Assembly: GCA_905235305.1 (NCBI GenBank)
Contig: CAJOLC010000019.1
Location: forward strand, 24,583-88,582
Length of the DNA: 64,000 bases
Reading direction: 5' to 3'
Origin: an uncultured Bacteroidaceae bacterium
GTDB taxonomy: Bacteria > Bacteroidota > Bacteroidia > Bacteroidales > Bacteroidaceae
Shown: positions 26,271 through 30,685 of the stretch, piece after piece
How the letters are laid out: each line of letters opens with the position of its first letter
Numbering within the stretch: position 1 is the stretch's first letter
Notes under the pieces: generated by a model
Databases searched by the model: none
Seen by the model: only the letters and a program-made list of their open reading frames with translations
Told to the model about the DNA's origin: nothing
Position numbers and translations under genes: made by a program

Positions 26271-27083
26271 CTACTTCTGCATCACTGCCTTGAAGTACCC
26301 GACGCTCTCTGCTATGCCGATGAAGGGGTCGCTCATGTCCTTCTCGTACTCGAGGCTGAGGGAGCCTTTGTAGCCCACCTTGCGGAGCATCTTGACAAAC
26401 TTCTGGAAGTCGATGGCGCCACGCCCCAGCTCGATGGCATGGCCTGCTTTCGTGCCTTCGGTGACGTCCTTCAAATGGATGTCGAAGACGCGTTTGCTGT
26501 ACCGCTTCAGGTCCTGGATGGGGTCGGCTCCAGCACGCAAATCATGTCCGATGTCGAGACAGATTCCCAGCCTCGGGTCGCGGTCCTTGACGTCGTTCCA
26601 GATGGAAGTCGCATCGGGGTAGAGTTTCATGTCGGGCCCATGGAGATGGATGGCATAGCGGATGCCCGTCTCCTTGACTTTCTGTTCTACCCTGTCGAGC
26701 ACGTCAAGGCGAGGCTTCTCGTCGCCCCACACGCCCGGCACACCCACGATGAGGTCTACGCCTACCCTCTGGGCATAGGCAAAGGCTGCGTCGACTGCGT
26801 CGACATCTTTCATGTAGATAGGTCCCACGGCATAGCCCGTCACGCCCGCTGCCGCCAACTTCTCCTTGAACTCGGCAATCTGTGCGGCATCAGCATTGAT
26901 GGGCAGGTGGAAGTCCTTGATGCAAAGGTAGCGGACGTCAATCTTCTGCATGAAGGAGAGCGTCTTCTCGATGTCGAACTTGACGAAAGTATAACCCGCC
27001 ATGCCGAGATGGAACTCTTCCGAAAGAAGGCTGAAAGCGTAAAAGAATGACAGGATGAACAGGGAAAGCGTACGAAGTCTCAT
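26271..27083 (-). CDS. Sugar phosphate isomerase/epimerase (TIM barrel)
   Basis: LGICLDIGHDLRAGADPIQDLKRYSKRVFDIHLKDV, signal peptide. Confidence 0.88.
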   Translation of the reverse strand: MRLRTLSLFILSFFYAFSLLSEEFHLGMAGYTFVKFDIEKTLSFMQKIDVRYLCIKDFHLPINADAAQIAEFKEKLAAAGVTGYAVGPIYMKDVDAVDAAFAYAQRVGVDLIVGVPGVWGDEKPRLDVLDRVEQKVKETGIRYAIHLHGPDMKLYPDATSIWNDVKDRDPRLGICLDIGHDLRAGADPIQDLKRYSKRVFDIHLKDVTEGTKAGHAIELGRGAIDFQKFVKMLRKVGYKGSLSLEYEKDMSDPFIGIAESVGYFKAVMQK

Positions 27084-27185: not shown

Positions 27186-27713
27186 ATGAATACGCATAAA
27201 ACATACGTTGCCTACGACGCAGAAGGCGTGCTCGATCATGAGAAGTCGAACCTGAAAACCTTCCGGCAACTCCATGCATGGCAGAGGATGCGTCCGGAGC
27301 GCTTCCGCTTCCTCAACATGGACGAGATAAACTTCTCGAGCGAACACGATGACTGGGTGGACTCGACAGTCAAGAACCGCCTGCTTGCCTTCATGGCTCA
27401 GGCCGACAACCTGCTTGTACTCGTCTCGCCCATCACGAACGTCGAGAGCCCCATCCTGAACTGGCAGATCAGCAAGGCCGTCAATCGCTTCCACCTGCCC
27501 GTCATCATTGCCTATGTCGGCGAGGAACAACTGGGAGACACGTCCATAGAAAAGAACTGGACGAAGTTGCCAAACAAGATACGCAAGTACATCGGGCGCG
27601 ATTCGGCCCGCATGTGCCACATCCCCCTCACGCAAGACAAACTGGAACGCGCCCTCGGAACCTTCTCCGTCGGAGCACAGACATACCCCTGGAACTCGAC
27701 AACAATATTCTAA
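27186..27713 (+). CDS. TIR-like domain protein (Thoeris ThsB / DUF1863-like)
   Basis: KTYVAYDAEG...WVDSTVKNRLLAFMAQADNLLVLVSPITNVESPILNWQISKAVNRFHLPVIIAYVG: Rossmann-like TIR pattern. Confidence 0.68.
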   Translation: MNTHKTYVAYDAEGVLDHEKSNLKTFRQLHAWQRMRPERFRFLNMDEINFSSEHDDWVDSTVKNRLLAFMAQADNLLVLVSPITNVESPILNWQISKAVNRFHLPVIIAYVGEEQLGDTSIEKNWTKLPNKIRKYIGRDSARMCHIPLTQDKLERALGTFSVGAQTYPWNSTTIF

Positions 27714-27772
27714 ACAGGATAACGCAGAATCTCTTAATCCCTTATTTCCTTAGTCTCTAAATCCCCCCCCTC

Positions 27773-28588
27773 ATGAACGGACAATACATCAAACGCATTG
27801 AGATAGATGCCCTCTGGAACGGACACAAGCACATCTGCTGGGATCTTCAGCCGGGCGTCAATATCCTTTCGGGCGTGAATGGCGTAGGCAAGAGCACTAT
27901 CCTCAATCGCGTCATCACGCACCTGCTGGACATCAACAAAGATACCCGGAAGAACGACGGCATCCATCTCACCATCTTCCCCGACGGAGCCAAGAGTATC
28001 AACTTCGAAGTCATTCGCTCCTTCGACAGGCCCATGCTATCGAACGAACTGATGAACAGGATGACTGACAACCAGATGCAGACAGAACTCGACCTGCACC
28101 TCTTCTACCTCGGGCGCAAATGGCTCGACTATCAAGTCAATCTCTCCAATCGCATGGTAGAACTCTTTTCCAGCAACGACCCAGAGGCTACTGCCAAAGT
28201 ACAGGCACTTGCCATGGAAAAGACACACTTCCTTGACATGATAGACGACCTCTTCCACGAAACAGGCAAGACAATCAAGCGCGATCAGAACGAGCTATAC
28301 TTCAACAGCTACGACGAGATGATATCCGCCTACAAGCTCTCTTCCGGCGAGAAGCAAATGCTCATCATCCTGCTCACCGTGCTTGTTCAGGACCGCAAGC
28401 CCTTCGTCCTCTTCATGGACGAGCCGGAAATCTCCCTGCACGTCGAATGGCAAAAGCGACTGATTGACCTCATAATGGACCTCAACCCCAACATGCAAGT
28501 CATCCTCACCACCCACAGTCCTGCCGTCATCATGAACGGATGGGGAGACAGGGTAACGGACGTCGAAGACATTGTAGTCACCCCATAA
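27773..28588 (+). CDS. AAA/ABC-type ATPase (OLD/AriA-like, compact)
   Basis: Walker A GVNGVGKST, signature SSGEKQ, Walker B FVLFMDEPEISLH, H-loop LTTHSP. Confidence 0.9.
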   Translation: MNGQYIKRIEIDALWNGHKHICWDLQPGVNILSGVNGVGKSTILNRVITHLLDINKDTRKNDGIHLTIFPDGAKSINFEVIRSFDRPMLSNELMNRMTDNQMQTELDLHLFYLGRKWLDYQVNLSNRMVELFSSNDPEATAKVQALAMEKTHFLDMIDDLFHETGKTIKRDQNELYFNSYDEMISAYKLSSGEKQMLIILLTVLVQDRKPFVLFMDEPEISLHVEWQKRLIDLIMDLNPNMQVILTTHSPAVIMNGWGDRVTDVEDIVVTP

Positions 28589-28645
28589 GGCCAGGAATGA
28601 AAAGGCGAAAGGCAAAGAATGAAAGCATGACAACGTAGGTGGCCT

Positions 28646-29683
28646 ATGGCAAAGCGTCTGCAGGAACAACTCAATTCCCAGTACTTCGAGCTTGCATCGA
28701 AGCTTCGCCCCAGAAATGCGGCGCGGAAGATTGTGGCATACGTGGAAAGCTACGACGACGTCTTCTTCTGGCGCTCTGTCCTGCAAGATTTCGAGACGAA
28801 GCAAGTTCAGTTCGAAGTGATGCTTCCCTCGCGACTGACCCTCAGCAAAGGCAAGAAAGCCGCCTTGATGAACAAGCTCGGCCCCCGTCTTGGCGATTAC
28901 ATGATAGCATGCGTGGATGCTGACTACGACTACCTCATGCAAGGTGCCACCGAGACAAGCCGGACGCTTCTCTCGTCTCCCTACATTTTCCACACGTATG
29001 CCTACGCCATAGAGAACTACCAGTGCTATGCTCCGGCGCTGCACACAGCCTGCGTGATGAGCACACTCAACGACAGGACAATCGTCTCTCTCGAGACATT
29101 CATGGAGGAATATAGCAAGATTATCTGGCCCCTCTTCGTCTGGAGCATCTGGGTACACAGGAACGGGCAGGCATCTGAATACAGCATCACAGCGTTTGGA
29201 AGGACTGTTACCTTCCACGACATCAATCCCTATCACCCAGAGAATGCACTCGAACACCTGCGAGAACGCGTCAATAAGCAAATAGGCTGGCTGCAACGTA
29301 AATACCCCAAAGCCAAAGAAAGCTACCTGAAGCTGCGCCAGACTCTGCAGGAAGAGCTCGGGATTCGCCCGGCAGAAACCTATTTGTACATCCAGGGACA
29401 CGCATTGATGGACGGCGTAGTCCTGCCACTTCTGAACCCAATCTGCAATATGCTGAGGAGGGAAAGAGAGAAGGAGATATCACAACTGGCACTTCACGGG
29501 CAACAGAAACAGAATGAGCTCTCCGGCTATCGGCACAGTCAATCGGCAATCGACCTCATGCTTCGCAAAAGCGTCGAGTTTAAGCAAAGTACTCCATATA
29601 AGCATCTGTCGGCAGACATAGAACGACTCATTGAGCGCGTCCTCAATAAAACTACCCCTTCCTCCAATGACCTACATCAATAA
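28646..29683 (+). CDS. DUF4435 (TOPRIM-like, AriB-related) protein
   Basis: VAYVESYDDVFFWRSVL, ACVDADYDYL, TYAYAIENYQCY are DUF4435 landmarks. Confidence 0.78.
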   Translation: MAKRLQEQLNSQYFELASKLRPRNAARKIVAYVESYDDVFFWRSVLQDFETKQVQFEVMLPSRLTLSKGKKAALMNKLGPRLGDYMIACVDADYDYLMQGATETSRTLLSSPYIFHTYAYAIENYQCYAPALHTACVMSTLNDRTIVSLETFMEEYSKIIWPLFVWSIWVHRNGQASEYSITAFGRTVTFHDINPYHPENALEHLRERVNKQIGWLQRKYPKAKESYLKLRQTLQEELGIRPAETYLYIQGHALMDGVVLPLLNPICNMLRREREKEISQLALHGQQKQNELSGYRHSQSAIDLMLRKSVEFKQSTPYKHLSADIERLIERVLNKTTPSSNDLHQ

Positions 29684-29742: not shown

Positions 29743-29750
29743 TACCTTTG
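29743..29750 (+). promoter_or_regulatory. Bacteroidetes -7 element (TACCTTTG) upstream of fabD
   Basis: TAnnTTTG with TTG about 19 bp upstream. Confidence 0.6.
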
Positions 29751-29785: not shown

Positions 29786-30685
29786 ATGAAAGCATTTGTA
29801 TTCCCCGGTCAGGGAGCACAGTTTACGGGTATGGGCAAAGAGCTCTACGACACGAATCCTAAAGCAAAGGAACTTTTCGAAAAGGCAAACGAGATACTTG
29901 GTTTCCGCATCACAGACATTATGTTCGAGGGCGATGCCGAGGAGTTGAAGCAGACAAAGGTTACGCAACCTGCTGTATTCCTCCATAGTGTCATCACTGC
30001 AATCTGCTTGGGCGAAGCCTTCAAGCCCGACATGGTGGGCGGCCACAGCCTTGGAGAATTCAGTGCCCTCACAGCTGCCGGAGCTCTTTCATTCGAGGAC
30101 GGGCTGCGCCTTGTCCATGCTCGTGCCCTGGCAATGCAGAAAGCCTGCGAAGCCGCACCAGGCACTATGGCAGCCATCATTAACCTTCCCGACGAGACTG
30201 TCGAGCAGACTTGCGCCGAAGTAACAGCAGAAGGCAAGGGCGTAGTAGTGCCTGCCAACTACAATTGCCCAGGGCAGCTGGTCATCAGTGGCAATATCGA
30301 GGAGGTGAACACTGCTTGCGAGAAGCTGAAAGAGGCTGGTGCAAAGCGTGCCCTTGTACTGCCCGTCGGCGGTGCCTTCCATAGTCCTCTCATGCAGCCG
30401 GCTAAAGATGAGCTTCAGTCTGCCATCGAAAAGACAGAGTTCCACACGCCATCCTGCCCCGTCTATCAGAATGTAGATGCCAAGGCTCACACGGATGCCG
30501 CCGAGATTAAGCAGAATCTTATTGCTCAGCTCACTGCAAGCGTGCGCTGGACTCAGGAGGTGCAGAACATGCTCGAAGCAGGTGCGACAGAGTTTACGGA
30601 GTGTGGCCCTGGCCGCGCCCTGCAAGGTATGATAACGAAGATTGCCAAAGGAATCGAAGGCATCACCATCGACGGCATTCAATAG
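29786..30685 (+). CDS. fabD: Malonyl-CoA:ACP transacylase
   Basis: AFVFPGQGAQFTGMGKELYD, GGHSLGEFSALTAAGAL. Confidence 0.97.
   Translation: MKAFVFPGQGAQFTGMGKELYDTNPKAKELFEKANEILGFRITDIMFEGDAEELKQTKVTQPAVFLHSVITAICLGEAFKPDMVGGHSLGEFSALTAAGALSFEDGLRLVHARALAMQKACEAAPGTMAAIINLPDETVEQTCAEVTAEGKGVVVPANYNCPGQLVISGNIEEVNTACEKLKEAGAKRALVLPVGGAFHSPLMQPAKDELQSAIEKTEFHTPSCPVYQNVDAKAHTDAAEIKQNLIAQLTASVRWTQEVQNMLEAGATEFTECGPGRALQGMITKIAKGIEGITIDGIQ

Follow-up and report, generated by a model that had tools for sequence, protein, structure and literature searches.

The window analysed here, a 64,000-nucleotide stretch of DNA from an uncultured Bacteroidaceae bacterium, contains three consecutive genes on the + strand together with a promoter element and two flanking genes:

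27186..27713, + strand: gene 1 (175 aa), a protein with a ThsB/TIR-like fold and a glutamine (Q94) at the position of the catalytic glutamate; a predicted pseudo-TIR, accessory and lineage-restricted
27773..28588, + strand: gene 2 (271 aa), a compact AriA-like ABC/OLD-type ATPase with Walker A GVNGVGKST, signature LSSGEKQ, Walker B DEPE and H-loop THS
28646..29683, + strand: gene 3 (345 aa), a DUF4435 (AriB-like) protein with TOPRIM-type acidic residues
27164..27171, + strand: -7 promoter box of the Bacteroidota type, TATCTTTG, located 14 bases before the start codon of gene 1
26271..27083, - strand: divergent sugar isomerase/epimerase-like gene, an upstream neighbour conserved in the genus; outside the module
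29786..30685, + strand: fabD, a housekeeping neighbour with its own -7 box at 29743-29750; outside the module

The initial annotation had described three collinear genes with gaps of about 57-59 bp, preceded by a -7 element and flanked by a divergent isomerase gene and fabD, and its coordinates and strands proved accurate: 59 bp separate genes 1 and 2, and 57 bp separate genes 2 and 3. Boxes of the -7 pattern TANNTTTG are enriched in the 64-kb window, with 48 found against 21 expected, and a scan of the + strand between genes 1 and 3 revealed none. Since the next + strand box is that of fabD, the three genes probably form one operon. All of them are under purifying selection (omega 0.06-0.10), and because all three are conserved across dozens of species, a chance arrangement of open reading frames can be ruled out for the trio.

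Genes 2 and 3 resemble AriA and AriB of the PARIS defence system, as had been proposed from the sequence. Gene 2 has every motif first ascribed to the 271-residue ATPase (Walker A, an SSGEKQ signature, Walker B and an H-loop), and the Walker A lysine, the signature serine and glycine, the Walker B aspartate and glutamate and the H-loop histidine are invariant in 109 relatives. It is recognized by the PADLOC AriA model PDLC04164 (E=1e-60), and the best PDB match of its profile is solved AriA (8ux9/8v45, E about 1e-18). Gene 3 is recognized by the PADLOC AriB model (E=4e-58). Its acidic residues E34, D91, D93 and D95 are present in 115 of 115 Bacteroidaceae family members, the first three also in 16 of 16 copies examined from outside the family, and GKK 69-71 and H252 are invariant or nearly so. 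The TOPRIM acidic residues of AriB, an E26-type glutamate and a DxD motif, thus have their counterparts here, with E34 taken as the E26-type glutamate by inference and not by alignment to E. coli AriB. The AlphaFold model of gene 3 (pLDDT 85.7) gave no significant match to the PDB in Foldseek, and E. coli AriB was not among the PDB matches of its profile at E<=1. For this reason, the putative TOPRIM fold is assigned from the motifs and the DUF4435 and AriB family profiles. The published detection rule for PARIS asks for an AAA_15 or AAA_21 ATPase adjacent to a DUF4435 protein, with score thresholds of 32, 27 and 27 (PMC9122126); the pair satisfies it with 73.1 bits for AAA_15, 74.1 bits for AAA_21 and 162.5 bits for DUF4435 (PF14491, cut-off 27, E=1.8e-47).

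In E. coli PARIS, AriA sequesters the TOPRIM nuclease AriB, and a trigger leads to release of AriB, its dimerisation and cleavage of tRNA-Lys (PMC12409363, PMC11455837). The pair shares with PARIS, for example that of E. coli B185, the order of an ABC/OLD-type ATPase followed directly by a DUF4435 protein, the ATPase motifs, the TOPRIM-like E...DxD residues and the PADLOC assignments to AriA and AriB. It differs in that gene 3 is too diverged for its profile to reach solved AriB, and in that the ATPase has 271 residues against the 464 of AriA. The missing part, about 180 residues, falls between Walker A and the signature (about 137 residues compared with about 315 in 8ux9), so gating by the short ATPase may differ from that of solved AriA; as a class mark, the long insert is a trait of the solved examples and stands outside the published detection rule. 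The ATPases of Septu (PtuA) and those associated with retrons belong to the same superfamily, but their profile and PDB matches to gene 2 are weaker, and the partner here is a DUF4435 protein, not a PtuB HNH protein or a retron.

A further difference from PARIS concerns distribution. Defence systems are normally patchy, being gained and lost quickly, and a patchy distribution with linkage to mobile elements is typical of PARIS, if not strictly defining. The pair, by contrast, behaves as a core and largely vertically inherited feature of one bacterial family. A DUF4435 relative was found in 146 of the 151 sampled Bacteroidaceae genomes, representing 28 of 30 genera, compared with 145 of the same genomes for the housekeeping control purA, and in essentially all loci long enough to show it, the gene just upstream is the ATPase. 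Elsewhere in the order, relatives occur in 13 of 195 genomes and are all weaker, with partial conservation in two outside families (5/8 and 2/5 genomes); elsewhere in the phylum, none was found in 148 genomes. The conservation of the trio across Bacteroidales that the initial annotation had suggested looking for is seen for the pair within Bacteroidaceae; gene 1 is present in 9 of the 151 genomes. G121 and G135, both nearly complete and both from genus g3, have no ortholog of the pair and represent natural deletions; the pair is thus not strictly essential. In genus g8 (loci L159 and L209; genomes G007 and G035), only a very diverged pair was seen, with about 30% identity and a very long branch, reflecting either fast evolution or replacement.

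The neighbourhood of the pair is likewise that of a chromosomal gene. Convergent trkA-dxs lies downstream in about 40 loci, Paraprevotella included, and a DMT/EamA transporter lies upstream in g4, g6, g9, g13, g22, g23 and Bacteroides finegoldii, while the precise position in the chromosome varies from genus to genus. The gene 3 and purA trees have 6 of 33 splits in common, against 0.1 expected, and their deepest split is the same (support 99 and 100). As the correlation between gene 3 and purA distances is 0.45 when g8 is left out and 0.17 when it is included, the gene 3 tree is only partly congruent with that of purA, and inheritance is mainly, though not provably solely, vertical. On these trees and neighbours, the pair has probably been inherited since the Bacteroidaceae ancestor. 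A search of 50,697 phage records for the pair returned no match. Full-length plasmid matches were confined to two Bacteroidaceae records labelled as plasmids, from B. finegoldii and Phocaeicola massiliensis; a plasmid-borne pair was set aside, as the former carries meaB and other chromosome-type genes and the latter is unannotated. The idea of a special anti-phage cassette of three genes is borne out only in part by these results: the pair is no mobile defence unit but a family-wide core to which gene 1 is an add-on, and the conserved chromosomal module offered as a closing alternative, with shared housekeeping neighbours and 146 of 151 genomes, is the better reading. The near-universal vertical conservation at the same locus that had been named as evidence against a defence cassette is found for genes 2 and 3 as far as conservation goes, but the site varies by genus and gene 1 does not take part. 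We found no report of a family-wide conservation of the pair in the literature, of which part was covered.

Gene 1 was correctly recognized as having a TIR/ThsB-like fold. It scores 28.8 bits against ThsB_TIR (PF08937, cut-off 21.2) and E=2.9e-26 against PADLOC ThsB, and in the PDB a profile of 26 homologues matches, at E<0.001, exclusively proteins of ThsB/TIR type: 9uv0 (ThsB, 1.8e-5), 8v6t (EcThsB2, 1.2e-4) and 3hyn (2.9e-4). The AlphaFold (AF2) model has a pLDDT of 93.5, and its top Foldseek match is again EcThsB2 (8v6t, TM ~0.63). The active site is altered, however. Q94, within LNWQI, aligns with the catalytic glutamate (motif x-E-I/M) of 9uv0, 8v6t and 3hyn, and a glutamine occupies this position in 48 of 49 homologues, the sole glutamate belonging to the most distant one. 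ThsB needs its catalytic glutamate, E85, and has no activity as E85Q (PMC10022894); judged by the PDB profile alignments, E85 would correspond to Q94. Because glutamine replaces the catalytic glutamate and the same exchange inactivates ThsB, gene 1 is predicted to be a pseudo-TIR with its enzyme site switched off, one that most likely acts through binding and not catalysis.

How closely gene 1 belongs to the pair is a separate matter. Its 9 genomes come from its own genus (5/9) and one other genus only. In its own genus, it is usually the gene that precedes the ATPase; in G078 and in four genomes of the second genus, g2, it lies away from the pair among unrelated genes. Placed on the tree of the pair, presence of the TIR requires four changes of state, against a random mean of 14.4, and effectively three, since the absence at L058 is a contig-end artefact. 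Relocation of the trio as a single unit was considered and rejected: sister genomes agree in having the isomerase on the upstream side and trkA-dxs on the downstream side, which places the change at the locus past gene 3; the TIR gene is simply present or absent at that site. Gene 1 is, then, an optional genus-level neighbour, a lineage-restricted accessory. It could even be a passenger, a functionally unrelated though conserved TIR-fold gene that stands upstream by historical accident, as its rarity, the broken adjacency in G078 and g2 and a spacing to the ATPase that ranges from about 5 to >330 bases would suggest. Against this stand an adjacency maintained over about 35% protein divergence, the shared predicted promoter, a length fixed at 175 aa across homologues and an omega of about 0.08 relative to close relatives, indicative of purifying selection. 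We give the passenger reading, which is compatible with our reading of the pair, an appreciable but minority chance.

Taking the locus as a whole, the explanation that we favour, with somewhat better than even confidence, is a vertically inherited PARIS-like switch in which an ATPase gates a nuclease, consisting of a two-gene core with a genus-specific pseudo-TIR. Such an ATPase-gated RNase is the most likely activity because the ATPase and nuclease residues are conserved. We infer complex formation, gating, trigger, RNA substrate and any part played by the TIR as follows. The ATPase would bind the nuclease and keep it inactive until an intracellular cue, which might be a phage protein, stress or a nucleotide state, alters the ATPase; the freed nuclease would then cleave RNA, as AriB cleaves tRNA, resulting in growth arrest or RNA processing. 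One genus-level lineage would in addition have acquired a ThsB-type TIR gene, catalytically dead and placed right before the pair within the predicted operon, and its product may bind a ligand or partner and tune the switch while making no signal itself. As to how this arose, we tentatively suggest, at less than even odds, that a single capture near the base of Bacteroidaceae brought in the pair, which was then fixed in the core as a permanent switch, either innate-immune or for housekeeping RNA cleavage, and that one lineage recruited the dead TIR as a non-catalytic regulator.

Because the pair is a core feature of the family, its cue and purpose may be either general stress or housekeeping, as for Cran1, or those of a permanently retained immune switch; its function may be abortive infection as a core trait or RNA processing as a housekeeping task. 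Cran1 is an archaeal class 5 OLD-family ATPase-nuclease that is non-defensive and essential to the cell cycle (PMC12796447). The likeness lies in a defence-type ATPase/TOPRIM protein kept as a chromosomal gene with an apparently non-immune function (PMC12796447); the difference is that Cran1 is a single fused archaeal protein that cannot be deleted, whereas here two bacterial proteins are involved that some genomes lack. With this precedent, a domesticated housekeeping function, in which the pair would be a non-immune RNA/DNA processing or cell-cycle enzyme of PARIS ancestry, draws support from retention at the level of purA, from strong purifying selection and from a housekeeping neighbourhood with no defence-island context seen at the loci read. 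We nevertheless regard it as the less likely reading, as the pair is naturally absent from the nearly complete G121 and G135, gene 3 is evolving at about 2.8 times the rate of purA, which is more typical of conflict genes, and second, mobile-looking pairs exist in Bacteroidaceae. These second AriA/AriB-like pairs (L143:4937-7050, L144:5124-6977 and L145:5869-7823) have 22-30% identity and occur in three genomes in which the core pair is present as well. Their neighbours are other ATPases, repeats of SDR-like genes or genes for sugar nucleotides, and in appearance they are mobile PARIS proper.

Gene 1 also invites comparison with Thoeris, since its TIR fold has its best PDB matches in ThsB (9uv0) and EcThsB2 (8v6t). 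Thoeris combines a ThsB bearing the catalytic glutamate with an adjacent ThsA. Here, the glutamate is replaced by Q94, no ThsA-type neighbour was seen at the loci read, and a search of the module's own assembly (88% complete) for ThsA of the SIR2_2 type gave no match. On the evidence of the glutamine and of the ThsA searches, the locus is not Thoeris. The fused signalling cassette of the initial annotation, with a ThsB-type TIR whose NAD+-derived signal would control a PARIS-like effector, is very improbable: the trio is indeed collinear under one predicted promoter, and within one genus-level clade the TIR keeps its place beside the pair, with about three state changes on the tree, but the TIR is optional, lacks the catalytic glutamate for such a signal in 48 of 49 homologues (an exchange that kills ThsB), is missing beside the pair in most of the family, lies apart from it in G078 and four g2 genomes, and has no ThsA-type SIR2 found in its own assembly.

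Bacteroidaceae are a dominant family of the human gut and rumen. A PARIS-like pair that matches purA in universality would represent either core immunity or a defence module that has been domesticated for a cellular task. On account of it, rule-based callers of PARIS would register a defence system in nearly all Bacteroidaceae genomes. Among Bacteroides and Prevotella, such calls may therefore mostly represent the core pair and inflate the apparent prevalence of PARIS; B. thetaiotaomicron jmh43, called PARIS-positive by DefenseFinder (PMC12135933), is a possible example, if its call corresponds to the core pair. A TIR with a conserved Glu-to-Gln exchange is, in turn, a useful case of a pseudo-TIR retained by selection.

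Two further groups of relatives emerged from the loci examined. In other Bacteroidales families (L125-L134), there is a DUF4435 subfamily with the motif IDSDxRYL, in which an arginine takes the place of D95; its members are paired with short ATPases and are partly conserved within genera g33 and g106. Stand-alone TIR genes at L137:5998-6525 and L140:6048-6569 (both Gln-type) and at L142:6069-6587 (Glu-type) lie among housekeeping genes without ThsA and constitute a small family of solitary TIR-fold proteins.
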